Of a DNA stretch of 35,825 nucleotides, positions 3,179-35,825 are shown in pieces. The notes under the pieces are model-generated. The model worked only from the letters and a program-made list of their open reading frames with translations. It had not been told where the DNA came from and searched no databases. The stretch comes from a virus: IMG/VR virus record IMGVR_UViG_3300042691_008118, positions 1 through 35,825 of that record; one strand, written 5' to 3'. The first letter of the stretch is position 1. Each line of letters begins with the position of its first letter. The position numbers and the translations under genes are program-made.

Positions 3179-4792
3179 ATGTCTGCTAAATCACGTTATG
3201 ACTATTTAGCTAGCGACCGTTCCAACTTTCTCAACGTAGCAAGGCAAGCTGCTGACCTCACTCTTCCTTACCTAAACCGTGGTGAAGAAGAGTTTGTCAA
3301 AGGCGCACGTCATCTCCCTACACCGTGGCAAAGCGTTGGTGCAAAGGGCGTAGTCACTCTGGCATCTAAGTTGATGCTGGCTCTACTACCTCCTCAAACC
3401 AGCTTCTTTAAGCTCCAGGTAAATGACAGTGCATTGGGTACTGAGCTTCCCCCGGAGGCCAAGTCTGAGCTTGATCTTTCCTTTGCAAAGATTGAACGTA
3501 TTATCCTTGAATCCATTGCTGCTTCTAGTGACCGTGTTGTTGTACACCAAGCGCTGAAGCATTTGGTGGTGACTGGTAATGCGTTGATCTTCATGGGTGA
3601 GAAACAGCTTAAGCTGTACCCCTTGAATCGCTATGTAGTGGAAAGAGATGGCAACGGCAATGTGCTTGAAATAGTCACTAAAGAACGCATCTCTAAAAAA
3701 CTACTGCTTAAGGTTCTTCCTCAGATTCTGCCTAACCGTCCTGACGGTAATGAGGCGGATCGAAATGATGAGGTTGATATCTACACTCACGTTCGTCGAG
3801 ACAACAATCGTTTTGTCTGGCATCAAGAGTATGAAGACAAGATCATCCCTGGCTCAATGGGTAAAGCACCTGTTGATGCAAACCCATGGTTGGTTCTTCG
3901 CTTCAACACTGTTGATGGTGAGGTCTATGGACGTGGTCGTGTTGAAGAGTTCATTGGGGATCTACGGTCCCTTGAGGCACTCTCTCAGGCCCTCGTAGAA
4001 GGCTCTGCAGCAGCCGCCAAAGTGGTCTTCGTGGTATCACCATCAAGCACTACTAAACCCCAGACGCTGGCCTCTGCAGGCAACGGTGCAATCGTTCAAG
4101 GACGACCTGATGACATTGGTGTCATCCAAGTTGGTAAGACTGCTGACTTCCGAACTGCATTTGAAATGATGCAGCAGTTGGAGCGTCGGTTGTCTGAAGC
4201 ATTCCTGATCCTTTCTGTTCGTCAGTCTGAACGGACTACAGCAGAAGAAGTGCGGATGACTCAAATGGAACTTGAGCAGCAGCTTGGTGGACTCTTCAGT
4301 CTGCTGACTACTGAGTTCCTTGTACCGTATCTGAATCGAAAACTAAACGTCTTCCAGAAGACAGGTCAAATCCCTCGTCTTCCAAAGGAGATCGTCAAAC
4401 CCACCATTGTGGCTGGTGTGAATGCATTGGGCCGTGGTCAGGATCGTGAAAGCCTCAGCGCTTTCCTTCAGACCATTGCTCAGAATATGGGTCCAGAGGC
4501 ACTTGCGAAATACATCAATGGTGATGAGGTAATCAAACGTCTTGCTGCTGCACAAGGTATTGATGTACTCAACCTTGTCAAGTCTATGGCTGATGTCCAA
4601 GGTGAAGCACAGCAGAACATGGCAATGCAGAAGGACATGATGCTGACTCAGCAGATTGGTCAACTCGCTAAAACACCTCTTCTTGACCCAAGTAAAAACC
4701 CACAAGCAATGGAGATGATCGGTGGACAAGGTAACCCCGTCCCGCCCAACCAAGGCCAAATCGAAACCGGTAACGCCCCCGCTATCGGCTGA
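3179..4792 (+). CDS. portal (head-tail connector) protein, T7 gp8-like
   Basis: The 537-aa protein is the dodecameric portal through which DNA is packaged and ejected, and it nucleates capsid assembly. Its length is close to T7 gp8 (536 aa). It has the conserved podoviral start (RYDYLASDR, followed by LTLPYL) and the segment TPWQSVGAKGVVTLASKLMLA that links to LLPPQTSFFKL. The core continues with NPWLVLRFN and EALSQALVEGSAAAAKVVF, then ERTTAEEVRMT. The C-terminus is Gln/Asn/Pro-rich. The gene follows its neighbour after 3 nt and its 3' end overlaps a small ORF in another frame. The assignment is secure by family pattern and by position before the scaffold. Confidence 0.96.
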   Translation: MSAKSRYDYLASDRSNFLNVARQAADLTLPYLNRGEEEFVKGARHLPTPWQSVGAKGVVTLASKLMLALLPPQTSFFKLQVNDSALGTELPPEAKSELDLSFAKIERIILESIAASSDRVVVHQALKHLVVTGNALIFMGEKQLKLYPLNRYVVERDGNGNVLEIVTKERISKKLLLKVLPQILPNRPDGNEADRNDEVDIYTHVRRDNNRFVWHQEYEDKIIPGSMGKAPVDANPWLVLRFNTVDGEVYGRGRVEEFIGDLRSLEALSQALVEGSAAAAKVVFVVSPSSTTKPQTLASAGNGAIVQGRPDDIGVIQVGKTADFRTAFEMMQQLERRLSEAFLILSVRQSERTTAEEVRMTQMELEQQLGGLFSLLTTEFLVPYLNRKLNVFQKTGQIPRLPKEIVKPTIVAGVNALGRGQDRESLSAFLQTIAQNMGPEALAKYINGDEVIKRLAAAQGIDVLNLVKSMADVQGEAQQNMAMQKDMMLTQQIGQLAKTPLLDPSKNPQAMEMIGGQGNPVPPNQGQIETGNAPAIG

Positions 4793-4940
4793 AGACCGTC
4801 AGTTCTTTGATGAGTCTGGCAACAAATATGCACCACGACCCAAGATTGGCAAAGCCACGATTGGAGTTCCCAACCGAGTGGAACGTGTAGGACTCGGCAA
4901 TCTTAAAGTAACTACTGTAAATGGCTACTCTGACATTTGA
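4722..4940 (+). CDS. small hypothetical protein overlapping portal and scaffold genes
   Basis: A 72-aa frame beginning at GTG 4722. It overlaps the portal 3' end by 71 nt and the scaffold start by 20 nt. The N-terminal third is Pro/Lys-rich; the unique part reads ...DRQFFDESGNKYAPRPKIG and is followed by a Val/Gly-rich end. No ATG exists in frame before the unique part, so either the GTG is used or the gene relies on coupling. The roughly 128 bases between portal and scaffold stay open in this frame, which supports it being real. No family recognised. Confidence 0.55.
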   Translation: MDKVTPSRPTKAKSKPVTPPLSAEDRQFFDESGNKYAPRPKIGKATIGVPNRVERVGLGNLKVTTVNGYSDI

Positions 4941-6268: not shown

Positions 6269-6394
6269 TACCCGCTCTGCTTCGGTATCGGGCTGAAATC
6301 CACAGCGATGTGGTCGGAGGACTGATCACCTCCGCTCGATAGAGCCTAAGCCCCTGTTATGTCCTGATGAGGCATATCACGCTTAGGCCATCAT
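6269..6394 (+). ncRNA. structured non-coding RNA region between small gene and tRNA
   Basis: No ORF is convincing here. Several hairpins follow one another. CCACA at 6300 pairs with TGTGG across a GCGA (GNRA) tetraloop. A CGGAGG/CCTCCG 6-bp stem at about 6315-6334 encloses an 8-nt loop, ACTGATCA. GCCTAAGC 6343-6350 pairs with GCTTAGGC 6381-6388 and contains an inner hairpin looped by TGATGA. The next bases begin the tRNA. It may be the leader or processing region of the capsid transcript, or a separate small RNA. That it is expressed is inference. Confidence 0.45.
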
Positions 6395-6465
6395 TTCGAT
6401 TTCGTCTAATGGTAAGACGCTGGTCTCCAAAACCAGAGATGGTGGTTCGATCCCATCAATCGGAG
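6395..6465 (+). tRNA. tRNA-Trp (anticodon CCA)
   Basis: A complete 71-nt cloverleaf can be folded. The acceptor TTCGATT pairs with AATCGGA (one U-G). The D-stem is GTCT/AGAC with loop AATGGTA. The anticodon stem is CTGGT/ACCAG with loop CTCCAAA (anticodon CCA at 6427-6429, reading UGG). The variable loop is AGAT. The T-stem is GGTGG/CCATC with loop TTCGATC, and the discriminator is G. No 3' CCA is encoded. The anticodon arm is like bacterial tRNA-Trp. It lies about 150 bases upstream of the major capsid gene, an unusual place. Confidence 0.85.
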
Positions 6466-6611
6466 TTGACTATCGGCCTCCTACGGGAGACAACCTTTAG
6501 TCATGACAGTCGGAGAGACGACAACAAATAAAACTGATTGAACACATGACACTTCATGTGATTCTCTAAGCGCTTAGAGGGAAACGAACACAACCTTCTC
6601 TCTTTACTATT
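6466..6611 (+). promoter_or_regulatory. major capsid leader with hairpins and a 16-bp palindrome
   Basis: No gene is visible between the tRNA and the capsid start. CACATGA 6543-6549 pairs with TCATGTG 6554-6560 over a 4-nt loop. CTCTAAGCGCTTAGAG at 6564-6579 is a perfect 16-bp palindrome. CTCC/GGGAG near 6479-6489 forms a smaller stem. The stems lie 30-130 bases before the capsid GTG. They could stabilise the abundant capsid mRNA, be processing sites, or be a protein-binding operator. I see no clear Shine-Dalgarno just before the GTG. Confidence 0.5.
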
Positions 6612-30370: not shown

Positions 30371-30712
30371 TCACCATAAATTTCTTAAGTCTATACGCGA
30401 GGGCAGGGGCGCAGATTTACCCCCATGCCCCCTCTTTGTCTAGGAATTGAGCGTGTTAGATCACCAATCTACCCACAAACTGTTCGCAGTGATACAGAAC
30501 CAGCCATTATTTCCTTATTGAGAACAGTGAGAACCGTTGCAGCGCAAGGGATCTGGGGCAGTCAGTATCACGAGATCTGTTCGCCCAAACCTTTTGTGTG
30601 TGAACTAATATGAACAGGCATGCCCTAAGCTCTGACCTATGCCCTACCATTGGCCCAAGCAACACAGCTCGACCGCTGCTCGTTGCTTACCTGACCTATG
30701 CCCTTAACACTC
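30371..30712 (+). other. gene-poor region with GC hairpin and repeated motifs
   Basis: Bases 30399-30434 can form a bulged GC stem (GAGGG...CAGGGG with CCCC...TGCCCCCTC) followed by TTT. An ORF from 30425 (62 codons) has no convincing character. Nearer the next gene are the 14-bp direct repeat CTGACCTATGCCCT (30632-30645 and 30691-30704), the inverted repeat AAGCAAC 30657-30663 with GTTGCTT 30682-30688, and copies of a TGCCCTAAGC-like motif. Likely regulatory, upstream of the small-gene array. Confidence 0.55.
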
Positions 30713-30889
30713 ATGATCACTAGCTACGAAGATTCAGTTCTTGCCTACATCGATGAGGATGGCTGCCTGCCTCCCGCCATCGCCAACGAGCTGATCAAAG
30801 ATCACTATTTGTGTATGGCTGATTATCTGGAGGAGACCCGCGACACTAAATTCCACGCTTCAGAACTGCTCAACTGGCTCGGTTACTGA
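30713..30889 (+). CDS. small acidic hypothetical protein
   Basis: A 58-aa acidic protein from ATG 30713 (MITSYEDSVLAYIDEDGCLP, ending FHASELLNWLGY). An in-frame ATG at 30698 would add five residues, but it is part of a duplicated motif also found in non-coding DNA, so the later start is preferred. First of a closely spaced array of small early genes. No family known. Confidence 0.6.
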   Translation: MITSYEDSVLAYIDEDGCLPPAIANELIKDHYLCMADYLEETRDTKFHASELLNWLGY

Positions 30890-30897
30890 TTAATCAC

Positions 30898-31110
30898 ATG
30901 GACACACCCACAATGTTTACTTCAAACCGCATCCCTCACGACTCCGGCCTTTATCACGAGATCCTCTACTACGGCGACGATGTGGCCGGGTACGTAATGT
31001 CAGACGACAACGGAGAGTATTGGTGGGCCATCAATGGAGGATCAGCCATCTCTCGTGGTTTCAAAACAGTCGCTGACTGTAAAGAGGATCTTATTCGTGT
31101 CCTTTCCTAA
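30898..31110 (+). CDS. small hypothetical protein
   Basis: A 70-aa protein with a compact, beta-type pattern: SGLYHEILYYGDDVAGYVMS, then DDNGEYWWAINGGSAISRGF, then a short helix ADCKEDLIRVL. It begins 8 nt after the previous stop; ATG 30913 is an alternative start. The aromatic, acidic character is common in phage inhibitors and small folded proteins, but no homology is recognised. Confidence 0.65.
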   Translation: MDTPTMFTSNRIPHDSGLYHEILYYGDDVAGYVMSDDNGEYWWAINGGSAISRGFKTVADCKEDLIRVLS

Positions 31111-31133
31111 TTAATCACAGGTACTCACCACAA

Positions 31134-31286
31134 ATGACAAACAAACAACGTACCCTCATCGAAACCTTCACCTTTTGCGGTTTCGCCTGCATCATCTCCA
31201 CCGTTACGATGCTTGGCTTCGCTGGGGTTGATCCTTTTACCCCAAATAATGCCCTAAGCAATACCACTGCAAAGGTTGCACAATGA
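31134..31286 (+). CDS. small membrane protein (50 aa)
   Basis: ATG 31134 to TGA 31284-31286. The product has a polar start (MTNKQRTLIETF), a hydrophobic segment at about residues 12-31 (TFCGFACIISTVTMLGFAGV) and a short polar end. One transmembrane helix is likely. The stop overlaps the next ATG (ATGA). A copy of the TGCCCTAAGCA motif (31250) falls inside its 3' coding part. Confidence 0.6.
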   Translation: MTNKQRTLIETFTFCGFACIISTVTMLGFAGVDPFTPNNALSNTTAKVAQ

Positions 31287-31477
31287 GTACTCACGAATTC
31301 AAAGCCTCTGACCTTACTTGGGCAGAGATCAATTTCGAGTCACCCGAGCAAGCTTTTAAGTTCGCTGATCGTCTCGAAAAAGAACTAGAGAATCCGAACA
31401 TCACACCAGAGCGCAAGGCTCACATTGATGAATGTTTGGATGATCTCTTTAGTTGTTTGTTTGATTCAGCCTTTTGA
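31283..31477 (+). CDS. small acidic hypothetical protein
   Basis: A 64-aa acidic protein starting at the ATGA overlap with the previous gene: TWAEINFESPEQAFKFADRL, then EKELENPNITPERKAHIDEC, then an acidic-hydrophobic tail. Probably a small helical bundle. It ends at a TTGA overlap with a possible micro-ORF. No family recognised. Confidence 0.6.
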   Translation: MSTHEFKASDLTWAEINFESPEQAFKFADRLEKELENPNITPERKAHIDECLDDLFSCLFDSAF

Positions 31478-31542
31478 TCCTCACACTACCGATTCCCGCA
31501 TTAATCGCGCTCACCTTTGCTCTTTACTTTCTCAAACGATGA
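31474..31542 (+). CDS. possible 22-aa hydrophobic micropeptide
   Basis: TTG 31474 overlaps the previous stop (TTGA), and the TGA at 31540-31542 overlaps the next ATG at 31539 (ATGA). The product is almost all membrane-type residues, beginning MILTLPIPALIALTFAL and closing with Lys-Arg. Stop-start overlaps at both ends, and the fact that it exactly fills the gap in a chain of small genes, argue for translation. The very short length and TTG start leave doubt. Confidence 0.4.
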   Translation: MILTLPIPALIALTFALYFLKR

Positions 31543-31679
31543 ATCACCCCTACCTTTATCCTGATCAGGCAGAGTGGACTGAGGATTATCAGGATCTCAA
31601 GGAAACAAGAGAGAGGAACTACCCTCGTGCTTTTGATGACGAGGAGGAGTTTCTAGATGCCCTGTTCTGGGTTGTTTAA
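31539..31679 (+). CDS. small acidic hypothetical protein
   Basis: A 46-aa protein from ATG 31539: MNHPYLYPDQAEWTEDYQDL, then KETRERNYPRAFDDEEEFLDALFWVV. Very acidic and aromatic. A longer frame back to 31425 exists but overlaps the previous gene fully, so ATG 31539 is preferred. Two copies of the TGCCCTAAG motif follow before the next gene. Confidence 0.6.
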   Translation: MNHPYLYPDQAEWTEDYQDLKETRERNYPRAFDDEEEFLDALFWVV

Positions 31680-31720
31680 CTTGCCCTAAGTAATGCCCTA
31701 AACACTACTACCACACAACC

Positions 31721-32398
31721 ATGGCTCACCAGTACCACCTAACTAAAAAGTCCAGCAACATCAAAACCGGGCCTATCGCTGTCAGCACAACATCAAAGGA
31801 TAGCTGCCCATCATCCTGCCCACTAAAGGGTAACGGTTGTTATGCTGAAACTGGCCCGCTATTTCTTCACTGGAATAAAGTCTCTGACGGTTCACGTGGT
31901 ATTGATCTTCAAACCTTTATTGATGCACTGAGAACACTACCGGAGGGTAGCTGCTTCCGTCACAATCAGGCAGGAGATCTTCCTCACCTTAGCGGCTTCA
32001 TTAACTATAAAGAACTAGAGGCTATCACTGAGGCTTGCGCTGAGCGTAAGCTAACAGCTTGGACATACACTCATCATAAGGTAGACAACTCTCACAATGT
32101 AGAGGTTATTCAAAAGGCTAACAATGACGGGCTTACAGTTAATGTAAGCGCCCACAGTCAGGCCCACGCTGTTGAGGTTTACAGAGAAGGGATGCCCGCT
32201 GTTTGTATCGTACCCAAAGATACTCAAGTAAACACGTGGTGCACCGATGGCGTTAAGTTTGTAGTATGTCCCGCTCAAACAAAAGCTAATAAAACCTGCG
32301 CTGAATGTAAGCTTTGCGCTAACGCTAACCGTACCTGTATCGTTGCATTTAAAGCCCACGGCACACAGGCTAAGAAAGTGGAGGCTACGATCAAATGA
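31721..32398 (+). CDS. Cys-rich Gp88-like phage protein
   Basis: A 225-aa protein with two Cys clusters. The N-terminal one is DSCPSSCPLKGNGCYAETGP; the C-terminal one is VVCPAQTKANKTCAECKLCA followed by NRTCIVAFKAHG. Between them is a region with FRHNQAGDLPHLSGFINYKE and LTAWTYTHHKVDNSHNVEVI. The pattern resembles the Gp88 family of phage proteins, in which clustered Cys may hold a metal or iron-sulphur centre; function is unknown. It lies in the early gene array and overlaps the next gene by 4 nt (ATGA). The family call is by recollection of the motif pattern, not by search. Confidence 0.7.
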   Translation: MAHQYHLTKKSSNIKTGPIAVSTTSKDSCPSSCPLKGNGCYAETGPLFLHWNKVSDGSRGIDLQTFIDALRTLPEGSCFRHNQAGDLPHLSGFINYKELEAITEACAERKLTAWTYTHHKVDNSHNVEVIQKANNDGLTVNVSAHSQAHAVEVYREGMPAVCIVPKDTQVNTWCTDGVKFVVCPAQTKANKTCAECKLCANANRTCIVAFKAHGTQAKKVEATIK

Positions 32399-32565
32399 AA
32401 AATATCTATGTTGTACACTACACCGCTAAACAATGGATGCACAAGCCAGACCCTAACGGGTTTGGAAAGTGTTCTAAAGCATTCCACAACTATGATACTG
32501 CACAACAATACGCGATCAAACGCCAATCAATGGGATGTAATACTGTGATTGAAGTTGTAGGCTGA
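32395..32565 (+). CDS. small basic hypothetical protein (56 aa)
   Basis: ATG 32395 overlaps the previous stop (ATGA). The product, 56 aa, starts MKNIYVVHYTAKQWMHKPDP and ends ...GCNTVIEVVG, with two Cys and a helical middle (YDTAQQYAIKRQSM). The stop-start coupling to the Gp88-like gene suggests a shared role. Not recognised. Confidence 0.65.
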   Translation: MKNIYVVHYTAKQWMHKPDPNGFGKCSKAFHNYDTAQQYAIKRQSMGCNTVIEVVG

Positions 32566-32741
32566 GATGGTAGACTGTGCTCACAACTAAAGACGGCAGC
32601 ACTCCGGCCCGCGCGGATGCATCCAGGCTCATGGCCCTGGGGTTGGAACTTCGGTTCCTCCCTGGGGCTTTTTTTTTGTGCCCAGGGTCGGGGGGAGTTC
32701 GTTACGACATCACAGGGACGCACCTAAGTTTTGAATCACTG
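32566..32741 (+). promoter_or_regulatory. GC-rich structured region before the RHH gene
   Basis: Although an open frame crosses it (from GTG 32577), the bases hold clear RNA structure. GGAAC 32645-32649 and GTTCC 32654-32658 close a TTCG tetraloop. CCCTGGG 32660-32666 pairs with CCCAGGG 32681-32687 around a run of nine T. The sequence is GC-rich and unlike neighbouring genes, so it is more likely a leader or attenuator than coding. The run of T after a GC segment could also end transcription. Confidence 0.45.
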
Positions 32742-32921
32742 ATGACTGCACTACATTCGCGGAAGCCGCAACGGCTCACGATCACTGTGTCGTGGGTCGT
32801 TTTTGAGCGTTTGGTCAAGCGTTCACAGATGGAGGGACGCAGCATGAGCAACCTATCGAGCTACATCCTTGAGCGACACCTGTGTGACGATTCAGGGACT
32901 GACCCATCAAGCATGCCCTAA
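32742..32921 (+). CDS. ribbon-helix-helix (Arc/CopG-type) DNA-binding protein
   Basis: A 59-aa protein from ATG 32742. The ribbon is QRLTITVSW, and the two helices are VVFERLVKRSQMEG and SMSNLSSYILERHL, with the typical GRS turn between them. This is the size and layout of dimeric RHH repressors. The frame is open further upstream to 32577, but that part covers strong hairpins and lacks protein-like character. A copy of the TGCCCTAAGC motif spans its stop codon. It is a good candidate regulator of early or lysogeny genes; its target is unknown. Confidence 0.68.
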   Translation: MTALHSRKPQRLTITVSWVVFERLVKRSQMEGRSMSNLSSYILERHLCDDSGTDPSSMP

Positions 32922-33130
32922 GCCATAGGTGCGGCATCATGTGTCTGTCGGGAGCGATCCCGATGCAATGCCGGAGCAGCCCTCATCACGGCTACATAAC
33001 GACGCACCGAGCCACCGCTGTTGAGAGTGGCTCCTCGCCCAAGGGGAGTTGTGGCGCGTGAAGTAACGCCCCTTCTTTATTTTACTCCCGCGACAGGAAA
33101 ACCCGTTGCACACACCAAGGCCACTACTGA
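32922..33130 (+). terminator. non-coding segment with hairpins and a terminator
   Basis: Three hairpins are visible: GGGA/TCCC over a GCGA loop at about 32950-32961, GAGCCAC 33009-33015 with GTGGCTC 33027-33033, and AAGGGG 33041-33046 with CCCCTT 33069-33074 followed by CTTTATTTT. The last is terminator-like. I see no ORF here. Confidence 0.6.
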
Positions 33131-33337
33131 GTGCCTGAACCGTTACAACAACGCCTAACTCGTCAATTCTGCATGCTCAATGCCTGCCTGGTTGATTGCG
33201 CGGGCGACCTGGAATCGATCCAGGAACTAGAACGATGCTTTAAATTACCGTCATATGGCCAAGAAAGATCCATTCCCCAACAACTGGGAGGAGGTGCAAA
33301 ACCTAGACGACGACGACATCGAGACTCCAACCTTTAA
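33131..33337 (+). CDS. doubtful small ORF
   Basis: A 68-codon frame from GTG 33131. The first 45 residues look helical (LQQRLTRQFCMLNACLVDCA, then DLESIQELERCF), but the end overlaps the next gene by 83 nt and becomes Arg-rich in the shadow of that gene. Only the first part could be meaningful. ATG 33170 is another possible start. Confidence 0.3.
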   Translation: MPEPLQQRLTRQFCMLNACLVDCAGDLESIQELERCFKLPSYGQERSIPQQLGGGAKPRRRRHRDSNL

Positions 33338-33554
33338 TGAGGTAATGGAGGACGTAATGATCTGGGACTTACCTGATCCTTACTGTGCGGTCGTGCGTGT
33401 CTACAACCCAACGACCAAAAAACTCAAGGAGTACGCCTACAAGCTTGAGTCAAAGGCTCATGATCGTATCCGTAGCTCTGCCCTTTCCGATGACGAGGTG
33501 ACCATCCTCACTCAAGCCGTCATTGGTTGCATCAACTACAACGCTGACACATGA
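33255..33554 (+). CDS. acidic hypothetical protein (99 aa)
   Basis: ATG 33255. It has an acidic N-terminus (DPFPNNWEEVQNLDDDDIET), then IWDLPDPYCAVVRVYNPTTK, KLKEYAYKLESKAHDRIRSS and an amphipathic helix DDEVTILTQAVIGCINY. Predicted alpha/beta. It overlaps the next gene by 4 nt (ATGA). Found in the regulatory/early block before the integrase; not recognised. Confidence 0.7.
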   Translation: MAKKDPFPNNWEEVQNLDDDDIETPTFNEVMEDVMIWDLPDPYCAVVRVYNPTTKKLKEYAYKLESKAHDRIRSSALSDDEVTILTQAVIGCINYNADT

Positions 33555-33721
33555 ACACACTCACCTCTGAGGAAACTGATGAACTGATGGCTAGGGACGA
33601 CATGTGTATCTTCCCGTCGCTCTATGCAGCTTCTGCATATGAGACGGAACTTAACACAAACCCCTATGACCAGATGGTACAAGCGTTCTACAATCTCCAG
33701 GTTTCGCGGGTGACTCCCTGA
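33551..33721 (+). CDS. small acidic hypothetical protein (56 aa)
   Basis: ATG 33551 overlaps the previous stop (ATGA). The product begins MNTLTSEETDELMARDDMCI and continues through FPSLYAASAYETELNTNPYD to ...VSRVTP. Probably helical, acidic. Coupling to the previous gene supports it. No family known. Confidence 0.6.
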   Translation: MNTLTSEETDELMARDDMCIFPSLYAASAYETELNTNPYDQMVQAFYNLQVSRVTP

Positions 33722-33723
33722 TC

Positions 33724-33912
33724 GTGACTTTAATTTATTTCTCGTGGATTCATTTCTATGTTGGCTGGGAGTCTATTTGTGCATCACGAAAGCTGCAGTT
33801 TTCCTGCACAAAGCAATGCCTTAAGCTGTTCTGGGGTTGTTTTGAGCTAATCTGGGATTGGATCGACATCTTCCCAGCTCATGGTTCTCAAGCGAACAAT
33901 CACCGTTTCTGA
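33724..33912 (+). CDS. doubtful aromatic/hydrophobic ORF
   Basis: A 62-codon frame from GTG 33724, 2 nt after the previous stop. It is unusually rich in Trp, Phe and Cys (LIYFSWIHFYVGWESICASR, then LFWGCFELIWDWIDIF). It overlaps the next gene by 32 nt. A small membrane protein is possible, but codon choice gives no clear support. Confidence 0.32.
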   Translation: MTLIYFSWIHFYVGWESICASRKLQFSCTKQCLKLFWGCFELIWDWIDIFPAHGSQANNHRF

Positions 33913-34243
33913 CCTGGAACTGTGGAATTTCTGTCGAGCTTTTGAAACGCTCAGACAACGGGTTCCCACCAAGGAGATGCCCGGACAATTGTTCTGTGTG
34001 TTCATGTTCATTGCGGCTGCAGGAGGGCCTGTTAAATGCATACAAATTGAAGAAGGACTTGGTTACAACCAATCCAGTGTGTCTCGTCTAACCAACTGGT
34101 TGTACGACAAAACACGGACAGGTAAACCGGGTTTACATTGGATCACTAAGGAGTACAGAGGTCAGGACAAGATCGTGATCTTGACACCACTTGGTGAACA
34201 AATCGCTCGTGAATTCTGGGAGACTGTTTATGGTCAAGCTTAA
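33881..34243 (+). CDS. MarR-like winged-helix DNA-binding protein
   Basis: A 120-aa protein from ATG 33881. PGQLFCVFMFIAAAGGPVKC starts the winged-helix domain, the recognition helix is in GLGYNQSSVSRLTNWL, the wing lies in LHWITKEYRGQDKIVILTPL, and the end is GEQIAREFWETV. The pattern of helix-turn-helix plus wing ending in an LTxxG-type turn is MarR-like. It lies directly before the integrase and overlaps it by 14 nt, so it is well placed to control integration or early transcription. Ligand and operator are unknown. Confidence 0.82.
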   Translation: MVLKRTITVSDLELWNFCRAFETLRQRVPTKEMPGQLFCVFMFIAAAGGPVKCIQIEEGLGYNQSSVSRLTNWLYDKTRTGKPGLHWITKEYRGQDKIVILTPLGEQIAREFWETVYGQA

Positions 34244-35219
34244 GACCTGGGGGCAGTGTGTCGATTACACGTTTGAGACACGGCCCACTTGGCGGAGCGG
34301 TCCCTCTGTGAAGTTCTACCGGATCAACACCGGGCATGTCACCAGCATGCGTGGTCGCTCCTTTCCGGTGGTCAAGATGGATGAGGACCAAGTAGCACAG
34401 ATCGTTGCTGAGCTGGAGGATGAGCGGCACATGTCGTCATCCACCCTCAATCGCGTGATGGCGACGATCAGTACTGTGTTCACGCATTGCCATGATAATC
34501 GGCGGATCGATGAGATCCCCTTCCGCAAGCTTCCCAAGCGTAAGGAAGGTGAACATCGGTTGCAGTGGTTCACCGAGGAGCAGGTGCATCACATGGCAGC
34601 AGCAGCACGCAATCCCTTTTGCAATCATGATCTCTCTGACCATATACTGGTTAGGGCATTTGCTGGGTTGCGCTCTGCAGAGCTGAATAAGCTTCAGGTG
34701 CTTGATGTCGATTTGGCACAGAAACGCATTCACGTTGGTGGACGTGATGGGTTTGTGACCAAAGGTAAAAACTACCGTTGCATCCCGATCTCTGAACAGA
34801 TCTACGAAATCTTCGTCAGACGCTGTGAGGGGCGCAGGGAATCAGCGTTGGTGTTTGGCAGCGACTTTGAGAACCCTGAACAGTTCCGGCGTGCTTTTAA
34901 CAAAGTGAGAAAGTTCATCGACCTTCCCGATGGTTACTGCCCACATTTGTTAAGGCATACATTTGGCACTCTGTTAAACGAGCGTGGTGTTGCTCCGTTG
35001 ACCATCAAGGAATTGATGGGTCACAAGCAAATTGAAACAACGTTACGATATGTAAAAGTTTCAGACCCCGCCAAACAGAACGCCATCGATGCATTGAGCA
35101 ACCACACATTGCCCAATACCACATCACCGGCAGTGCCAACTCTTGAGGATCTGATGCAAGCCTGGCTGACCCAACAGGGCCTCCAGAAGCTGGATCTGAG
35201 CCCGTCTACCGGCGTCTAA
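34230..35219 (+). CDS. int: tyrosine-type site-specific integrase
   Basis: A 329-aa recombinase from ATG 34230; the frame is open back to 34191, but that overlaps the previous gene further. An N-terminal core-binding helical region (about 50-105) precedes the catalytic domain. The catalytic residues are visible: R148 (AGLRSAELNKL), a Lys near 179 (TKGKNYR), H239-x-x-R242 (PHLLRHTFG), H265 (MGHKQIETT) and Y274 (LRYVKV). Known members catalyse recombination between phage attP and a host attB. It is followed within 120 bases by a tRNA-Leu 5'-half copy, the expected att core. This is the P-SSP7-like arrangement. The C-terminal tail beyond residue 290 is Pro/Thr-rich. Confidence 0.95.
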   Translation: MVKLKTWGQCVDYTFETRPTWRSGPSVKFYRINTGHVTSMRGRSFPVVKMDEDQVAQIVAELEDERHMSSSTLNRVMATISTVFTHCHDNRRIDEIPFRKLPKRKEGEHRLQWFTEEQVHHMAAAARNPFCNHDLSDHILVRAFAGLRSAELNKLQVLDVDLAQKRIHVGGRDGFVTKGKNYRCIPISEQIYEIFVRRCEGRRESALVFGSDFENPEQFRRAFNKVRKFIDLPDGYCPHLLRHTFGTLLNERGVAPLTIKELMGHKQIETTLRYVKVSDPAKQNAIDALSNHTLPNTTSPAVPTLEDLMQAWLTQQGLQKLDLSPSTGV

Positions 35220-35338
35220 CACCCCCTGTGTTAGGCTTCATTCATCGGTGAGACGCCTCGTTTCTTACGAGTCCAACATCGAGCCACAGCCGGTTTTCTT
35301 CCCTGAAAACCCTTGCAACCGTTGAGGTTGTGACACTT
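35216..35338 (+). promoter_or_regulatory. hairpin-rich segment between int and att
   Basis: CTAACAC 35216-35222 pairs with GTGTTAG 35228-35234 across the end of int. Further hairpins are CTCGT/ACGAG near 35257-35271, GGTTTTC/GAAAACC near 35293-35312 and CAACC/GGTTG near 35317-35331. These could be weak terminators or integrase arm-site structure. No T-run follows any of them. Confidence 0.45.
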
Positions 35339-35380
35339 GCGGATGTGGCGGAATTGGTAGACGCGCTAGTTTCAGGTTCG
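35339..35380 (+). other. attP-like core: 5' half of a tRNA-Leu(CAG) gene
   Basis: From GCGGATGTGG through TTTCAGGTTC the sequence equals the acceptor strand, D-arm and anticodon loop (CAG) of a bacterial tRNA-Leu, then departs from tRNA sequence: no variable arm, T-arm or 3' acceptor follows. About 40-42 bases match, close to the 42-bp tRNA-Leu match described for P-SSP7. It lies 120 bases after int. Such partial tRNA copies are typical of attP, restoring the tRNA on integration. It is a fragment, not a functional tRNA. Confidence 0.88.
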
Positions 35381-35408
35381 TCGATCTCAAGAATTGTCTA
35401 AGGCATGG

Positions 35409-35437
35409 AGCGGGTCCAAGTGGCCCGCTTTTCTTTT
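35409..35437 (+). terminator. rho-independent terminator before the RNA polymerase gene
   Basis: AGCGGG 35409-35414 pairs with CCCGCT 35424-35429 over a 9-nt loop, followed by TTTTCTTTT. It would stop transcripts from int and insulate the RNA polymerase gene. Confidence 0.82.
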
Positions 35438-35460
35438 GCTTAGGTGTATGCCCTAAGCAA
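35436..35460 (+). promoter_or_regulatory. operator-like inverted repeat TTGCTTAGG-N7-CCTAAGCAA
   Basis: TTGCTTAGG 35436-35444 and CCTAAGCAA 35452-35460 are perfect complements, 7 bases apart, 34 bases before the RNA polymerase start. The right arm is one copy of the TGCCCTAAGC motif family. The size is right for a dimeric repressor site; it could also be an RNA hairpin. Confidence 0.65.
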
Positions 35461-35494
35461 TGGACCATTTTCCGAATCTACCAACAAGTCTCTT

Positions 35495-35825
35495 ATGTCA
35501 ACTCCTGCTCTTATCGAGGAGGAACTGCTACTTGAAAAACGGGCTTGTGCTTACGGACGTGAGCGGCTCCTAGAGAACACCAGAAAGCTTGAGGATCGCT
35601 CCTACGCCTCAGCAAGTGTGTATGGCGCAGCAAGCATCCAAGCCGCCTTGGTGGACGTTGCAGCGGTCGTTCAGGACACGCTCAACCGCATCCACGAAGG
35701 GCACAACGGCAAGGACTTCATCACCATCCACCAGTACTTGGCGGAGATCGAGCCCGAGGCAGCAGCAGCCATTGCGTTGAAGCTGACCTTTGACCATGTG
35801 TTCAGCCCCAAAGACCGAGCCAACG
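35495..35825 (+). CDS. single-subunit phage RNA polymerase, N-terminal part (partial)
   Basis: ATG 35495 opens a frame without stop to the right edge (110 codons). The N-terminal helix is charged (IEEELLLEKRACAYGRERLL). The segment HQYLAEIEPEAAAAIALKLT followed by FDHVFSPKDRAN lines up with the T7 RNA polymerase N-terminal region that reads FLQEIKPEAVAYITIKT. This domain binds upstream promoter DNA in T7. Position just after int/attP is where P-SSP7-like phages keep it. Catalytic motifs are beyond the window, so the call rests on this N-terminal similarity and synteny. Confidence 0.8.
   Translation, partial: MSTPALIEEELLLEKRACAYGRERLLENTRKLEDRSYASASVYGAASIQAALVDVAAVVQDTLNRIHEGHNGKDFITIHQYLAEIEPEAAAAIALKLTFDHVFSPKDRAN

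Follow-up and report, generated by a model that had tools for sequence, protein, structure and literature searches.

Operator-like sites in the early block of a T7-like cyanopodovirus vary with its MarR-like regulator

Which factor recognizes the short directional motif that recurs in the early block of a T7-like cyanopodovirus? The window analyzed here, a stretch of 35,825 nt from IMG/VR virus record IMGVR_UViG_3300042691_008118, represents most of such a genome, and its contig end falls inside the RNA polymerase (RNAP) gene. Among isolates, Synechococcus phage S-SRP01 is nearest, and most of the region aligns to it at 85.8% nucleotide identity. The early block, which spans about 30.4-35.5 kb, comprises small open reading frames (ORFs), a DUF7227 protein, an RHH-like protein to which Pfam gave a weak match, a MarR-like regulator, an integrase, an attP core, a terminator and the polymerase. 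Comparison with relatives suggests, with a probability of roughly 0.7, that the motif represents a lineage-specific operator set of the phage MarR-like winged-helix regulator encoded at 33881-34243.

Nine ATGCCCTAAGC-like sites are located on the + strand across 30620-35461. Exact copies of TGCCCTAAGC were found at 30621, 31250, 32914 and 35449, one-mismatch copies at 31682, 31694 and 33817, and two or three weaker copies include ATGCCCTA at 30639 and ATGCCCTTAAC at 30698. This agrees with a sequence-only reading of the locus, which had counted about nine copies on one strand over 5 kb, mostly at gene junctions and two of them within or across coding sequence. The sites mostly precede the next gene by 0-65 nt, the copy at 31249 falls within the last part of a predicted ORF, and that at 32913 overlaps the RHH stop codon. 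The remaining matches with one mismatch in the 35.8 kb are two, both on the - strand (6381 and 34649). A position weight matrix (PWM) trained on relatives, with the window held out, placed the top seven window sites in 30621-35449, all on the + strand. The number of + copies with at most one mismatch, seven in 4.9 kb, was higher than in all 60 shuffles (maximum 5). The individual sites, including an inverted partner on the opposite strand, are:

30620..30633, + strand: operator-like site ATGCCCTAAGCTCT of the left cluster; exact 10-mer, conserved in S-SRP01 at 4050, held-out PWM score 21.3
30639..30652, + strand: weak site ATGCCCTACCATTG, 19 bp from the first site, assigned by sequence
30698..30711, + strand: site ATGCCCTTAACACT directly before the first small early gene (~30716); orthologous to TATGCCCTAAACC at 4118 of S-SRP01, PWM score 17.9
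31249..31262, + strand: site ATGCCCTAAGCAAT in the end of a small ORF, 5' of the gene at 31283; exact, conserved in L014 at 7230, PWM score 22.5
31681..31694, + strand: site TTGCCCTAAGTAAT, first of a tandem pair 5' of the DUF7227 gene; one mismatch, degenerate in S-SRP01 (TTGCCTCAACC)
31693..31706, + strand: site ATGCCCTAAACACT 5' of the DUF7227 gene (31721); conserved in S-SRP01 and L014
32913..32926, + strand: site ATGCCCTAAGCCAT overlapping the RHH stop codon
33816..33829, + strand: site ATGCCTTAAGCTGT, 65 nt 5' of the MarR start; conserved in S-SRP01, L014 and L016
35393..35406, - strand: inverted partner site O_L ATGCCTTAGACAAT, 55 bp centre to centre from O_R
35448..35461, + strand: site O_R ATGCCCTAAGCAAT, 33 nt 5' of the RNAP ATG at 35495; exact, leader operator aligned across about 45 contigs

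Top sites in the full window cluster in the early block, and orthologous positions are occupied in the relatives. The motif is found at orthologous places in S-SRP01 and in an environmental relative, L014/G001, and both have a further copy inside the RNAP gene at about nt 1375. In relatives the same positions, namely the RNAP leader, the upstream regions of early genes and the interior of the RNAP gene, are occupied by coherent lineage variants (TGCCCTAAGC, TCCACTAGTGSA, TCCACTAATCA, TTCCACTCRTCA). Within a relative the RNAP leader and RNAP-internal sequences match each other. One group has TCCACTAGTGGA or TCCACTAGTGCA, a second combines TCCACTAATCA with TCCACTAGTCA, and a third TTCCACTC with TCCACTTGGCA. 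The variants are repeated in their own early blocks. TCCACTA occurs in G004 nine times on the + strand versus once on the - strand, and group B genomes contain 12-16 palindrome matches, both strands counted. In a cross-table most genomes were enriched mainly for their own variant, with groups C and D not told apart. The arrangement of many dispersed sites predominantly in one orientation, which in the window amounts to nine on the + strand plus an inverted partner, is similar in S-SRP01 and G004.

A hint to the reader of these sites came from relatives that carry a different regulator. In L019, the early genes are 84-93% identical to those of the window and RNAP is 92% identical to that of S-SRP01, whereas MarR and integrase share only 33% and 43% identity with their S-SRP01 counterparts. 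Its motif is switched at five places beside conserved flanks: the DUF7227 leader (TCCACTAGTGCA beside homologous gene sequence), the RHH end (TGCACTACTGCA, where S-SRP01 has the 14-bp perfect palindrome ATGCCCTAGGGCAT), the MarR leader (TCCATTAGTGCA between homologous flanks), the RNAP leader and the RNAP interior. L016 represents the mirror case with RNAP at 83% and MarR at 89% identity and an unchanged motif.

Pairwise distances among 14 close loci gave the same picture. The leader operator distance correlated with the MarR distance (r=0.81, p 2e-4) but not significantly with the RNAP distance (r=0.13). For the RNAP-internal site the correlation was 0.74 with MarR (p 2e-4), -0.05 with RNAP and 0.12 with the 300-nt flanks of the site itself. 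When all windows of the RNAP gene (about 2,290) were scanned blindly, the motif was the global maximum of the MarR correlation (r 0.79-0.80; mean 0.12-0.13, standard deviation 0.10). Peaks 3' of RNAP were unreliable, resting on 7 loci only. Compared across relatives, the variant tracks neither RNAP, the RHH protein nor neighboring genes. The sites show a trans-acting specificity that is linked to MarR and acts at many sites, and MarR as their reader is well supported.

The internal site may even have left a trace in the polymerase. A proline that is invariant in the compared RNAPs, T7 P496 included, is replaced by alanine only in the TGCCC group and in L015. Gap columns aside, the only RNAP columns separating the TGCCC group from all others are those encoded by the motif. 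The proline exchange therefore suggests selection on the RNAP-internal DNA site at the expense of the protein. This putative operator, embedded in the polymerase coding sequence and changing with the regulator, is the most striking single fact of our comparison.

The proposed reader and the elements between it and the polymerase are:

33881..34243, + strand: MarR-like winged-helix regulator adjoining the integrase; PHROG 9665 transcriptional regulator, E 5e-16
34206..35219, + strand: tyrosine integrase in the same cassette as MarR; Pfam PF00589, E 5e-22
35339..35382, + strand: attP core, the 5' part of tRNA-Leu, with about 42 nt identical in other cyanopodoviruses; its attP role is described in PMC8776855
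35407..35431, + strand: intrinsic terminator between O_L and O_R
35495..35825, + strand: T7-like RNAP gene with ATG at 35495, truncated by the contig end; 95% identity to S-SRP01 RNAP over 110 aa

A Pfam search of the MarR-like protein of the window yielded no match. Its AlphaFold2 model (pLDDT 89.7) displays a MarR-fold winged helix, with MarR 4jba, AbfR-DNA 5hlg and MepR as top Foldseek matches (TM ~0.55-0.6, 15% identity), and a profile matched MarR 2eth (E 4.5e-6). Hence, the winged-helix fold that characterizes the MarR family is predicted with confidence. Across 38 MarR homologues S68, R69 and G105 as well as A45 are invariant. The first three appear to correspond to S66, R67 and G106 of pMarR from phage P-SSP7, a homologous regulator at the same locus for which PMC9692554 reports a dimer that binds DNA and for which these residues are essential.

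The leader of the RNAP gene carries the operator-like site at the same place in about 45 cyanopodovirus contigs with MarR and integrase upstream. It often forms a dyad with a 6-nt spacer, e.g. TATCC-ACTAAG-GGATA or TGTCC-ACTAAC-GGACA, with a mean arm match of 2.97/5 versus 1.25 in control windows. In 15 of 30 distinct leaders a second, inverted site is found exactly 55 bp upstream (controls: mean 0.4, maximum 4), and the O_L 14-mer is identical at this distance in L009, L014, L015 and L016. The fixed spacing is a stronger sign of such a partner than the own-versus-swapped test, which was marginal (p 0.03). In the window the inverted pair 35393-35406 (-) and 35448-35461 (+) spans the terminator. 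A perfect inverted repeat noted earlier before the RNAP gene, GCTTAGG/CCTAAGC at 35438-35444/35452-35458, is real but incidental. The left arm reads TTTAGG in S-SRP01 and is missing in L016 and L017, and the repeat was rejected as an element of its own for lack of conservation. A second conserved leader element, CGGTTCTAGCGAG, follows the operator (CGAATCTACCAAC at 35472-35494 of the window; also L010:4235-4254). It is present in essentially one copy per genome and is possibly a promoter or translation element.

We infer that MarR dimers bind the sites and, with less certainty, that they repress the early block and RNAP, the sign of regulation being the weakest step. MarR dimers would hold back both the early block and the polymerase, and at the leader pair MarR would prevent transcription from starting or from entering the RNAP gene. 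The fixed orientation of the sites at junctions and inside the RNAP gene suits blocks to elongation. By analogy to mycobacteriophage stoperators, the dispersed sites, the RNAP-internal one included, may serve as elongation roadblocks. The site 65 nt before marR suggests possible autoregulation. Such a circuit might set the balance between lytic and integrated states and give rise to specificity groups of the immunity type.

Several points limit or weigh against this interpretation. Codon-repeat words attain 7-8 copies in other coding tiles of the window, so that enrichment within the window is weak by itself and the motif claim rests on the comparison with relatives rather than on counts. Because the leader site is in physical linkage with the int/MarR cassette, independent evidence comes only from sites outside this linkage, in particular the RNAP-internal one. 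L015/G002 (IMGVR_UViG_3300020220_000127) encodes a MarR 91% identical to that of the window, but its sites are degenerate (TGCCTGAAGAGC, TGCACTAGGCAA), possibly due to decay of the circuit or shifted specificity. Leader sites of the TGCCC type fit the N6 dyad poorly (1/5), although the RHH-end site of S-SRP01 is a perfect palindrome. In T7-like cyanophages no stable lysogeny has been found (PMC8776855), and a prophage scan of bacterial genomes resulted in two loci only, both in metagenome-assembled genomes. All evidence is derived from comparative sequence data. Finally, P-SSP7 pMarR contacts the alpha subunit of host RNAP and in an E. coli reporter activates the host rne promoter from a site downstream of the start (PMC9692554).

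Activation is therefore conceivable here too, with MarR at the same operators directing recruited host RNAP to the early genes through an alpha contact. We regard this as less probable, since blocking would better explain why some sites fall within coding sequence and why an inverted pair flanks the terminator before RNAP.

A promoter of the phage's own single-subunit RNAP was favoured at first because the motif recurs inside the RNAP gene of relatives, just as the Syn5 promoter is found inside the Syn5 RNAP gene at 4929, and its fixed orientation is in agreement with this. The P-SSP7 leader TATCCACTAAAGG also resembles T3/T7-type promoters. This reading was dropped because RNAPs with identical specificity loops, those of L016 and L094, carry different motifs. 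No specificity-loop column separates the groups, and the partial correlation of operator with RNAP given MarR was -0.09 in the close loci. Moreover, the sites cluster in the early block and not before middle or late genes; no comparable + site outside the early block and RNAP was found in the window, S-SRP01 or G001. The Syn5 promoter shares with the present motif that it is short, directional and also located inside an RNAP gene, but it differs in sequence, occurs in two copies per genome and is recognized by RNAP, which the present motif does not track (PMC3950665). We consider a phage promoter very unlikely. Host sigma-70 promoters, for which no excess was found near the sites, were rejected as well.

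Even less probable are sites for a different protein of the cassette, for example the integrase. In the close loci the integrase is inherited together with MarR (r 0.96), and the whole RNAP leader correlates with the integrase cassette. However, the partial correlation of the internal site was 0.47 with MarR given integrase (p 3e-4) and -0.21 with integrase given MarR, and sites lie up to 5 kb from attP. The least probable readings are an RNA-level signal (boxA-like antitermination, a leader or the minimal ORF ATG-CCC-TAA), to which the mostly transcribed junctions, the single strand and the many copies reading ATG CCC TAA would fit but of which variants such as TCCACTAGTGGA keep neither boxA nor mini-ORF while dyads and the inverted site point to DNA, and an RHH operator, given that RHH of L019 is 84% identical to that of the window and its motif is switched. 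Thus, promoter, boxA and RHH readings are all disfavoured, and of the options offered by the sequence-only reading an asymmetric protein site remains, with the MarR-like protein as likely reader instead of RHH.

The MarR operator set resembles the stoperators of cluster A mycobacteriophages (L5/Bxb1), which are predominantly oriented with transcription and whose consensus diverges with the repressor (PMC6550527, PMC9283540). Both systems have many short sites in one predominant orientation at gene junctions, and, as expected for stoperators, the site sequence co-diverges with MarR. In contrast, L5/Bxb1 use genome-wide asymmetric 13-mers and a monomeric repressor with two DNA-binding domains, whereas the present T7-like phage has a single winged helix-turn-helix protein of the MarR fold, sites that are often dyads with palindromic variants, and about ten of them confined to the early block and the RNAP gene. 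The present system is not a member of the L5 family. The MarR-like regulator and integrase form the same module as in temperate T7-like phages such as LUZ100, for which MarR sites flanking the promoter before the RNAP gene were proposed (PMC10134795, citing Boeckman et al. 2022). The present comparison adds a defined site sequence, which continues through the early block and into the coding sequence of RNAP, and connects it to MarR by covariation. For P-SSP7 pMarR, the target in the available part of PMC9692554 is the host rne promoter, with neither a consensus nor phage targets given there.

Other cyanopodoviruses seem to possess directional operator-like words of their own. S-CBP3 (W05) has TCCACCtgGGTA with 10 copies on the + strand versus 0 on the - strand (220, 4894, 7162 and others), and S-TIP37 (L012; 5045, 5425) has CTGTGCctagctGCACAG before the RNAP gene and a similar word inside it. 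Most directional words found de novo in such phages were codon repeats; only those of S-CBP3 (10:0), S-CBP1 (7:0) and P-SSP7 appeared operator-like.

Further observations concern neighboring regions. The listed RHH ORF (32577-32921) probably starts too early, because a terminator-like hairpin with a T run (32649-32669) lies in its first part and the alignment of several homologues begins only at residue ~30. The stretch 32930-33175, located between RHH and the following conserved gene, is conserved and apparently non-coding, and it is also present in L009 (6130-6380), L014, L015, L019, L088, L092, L093 and L096. A multi-stem structure closed by a long-range helix is predicted, with compensatory double changes in 9 of 43 predicted pairs; single-sequence folding was weakly better than in shuffles (z -1.7). 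Comparison of this stretch to Rfam gave no convincing match. It is a candidate for a new structured RNA of these phages. The structural region contains one further feature:

6394-6466: tRNA-Trp(cca) gene

T7-like cyanophages carry integrases and integrate, and a repressor circuit has not been identified nor have stable lysogens been obtained (PMC8776855). A tentative extension of our reading is immunity of the stoperator type, in which a MarR-fold repressor at many sites would halt both host RNAP and the phage single-subunit RNAP, including inside the RNAP gene, and would define heteroimmune groups. If this is true, it would provide the repressor circuit that integrating T7-like cyanophages are reported to lack. 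The logic of repressor and stoperator is already known, and the putative MarR-linked operator set in these phages appears to be a new variation on it. A defined operator, a cognate regulator and clear specificity groups make the circuit testable, and the operator sequence could serve to predict immunity groups in aquatic viruses that are abundant.

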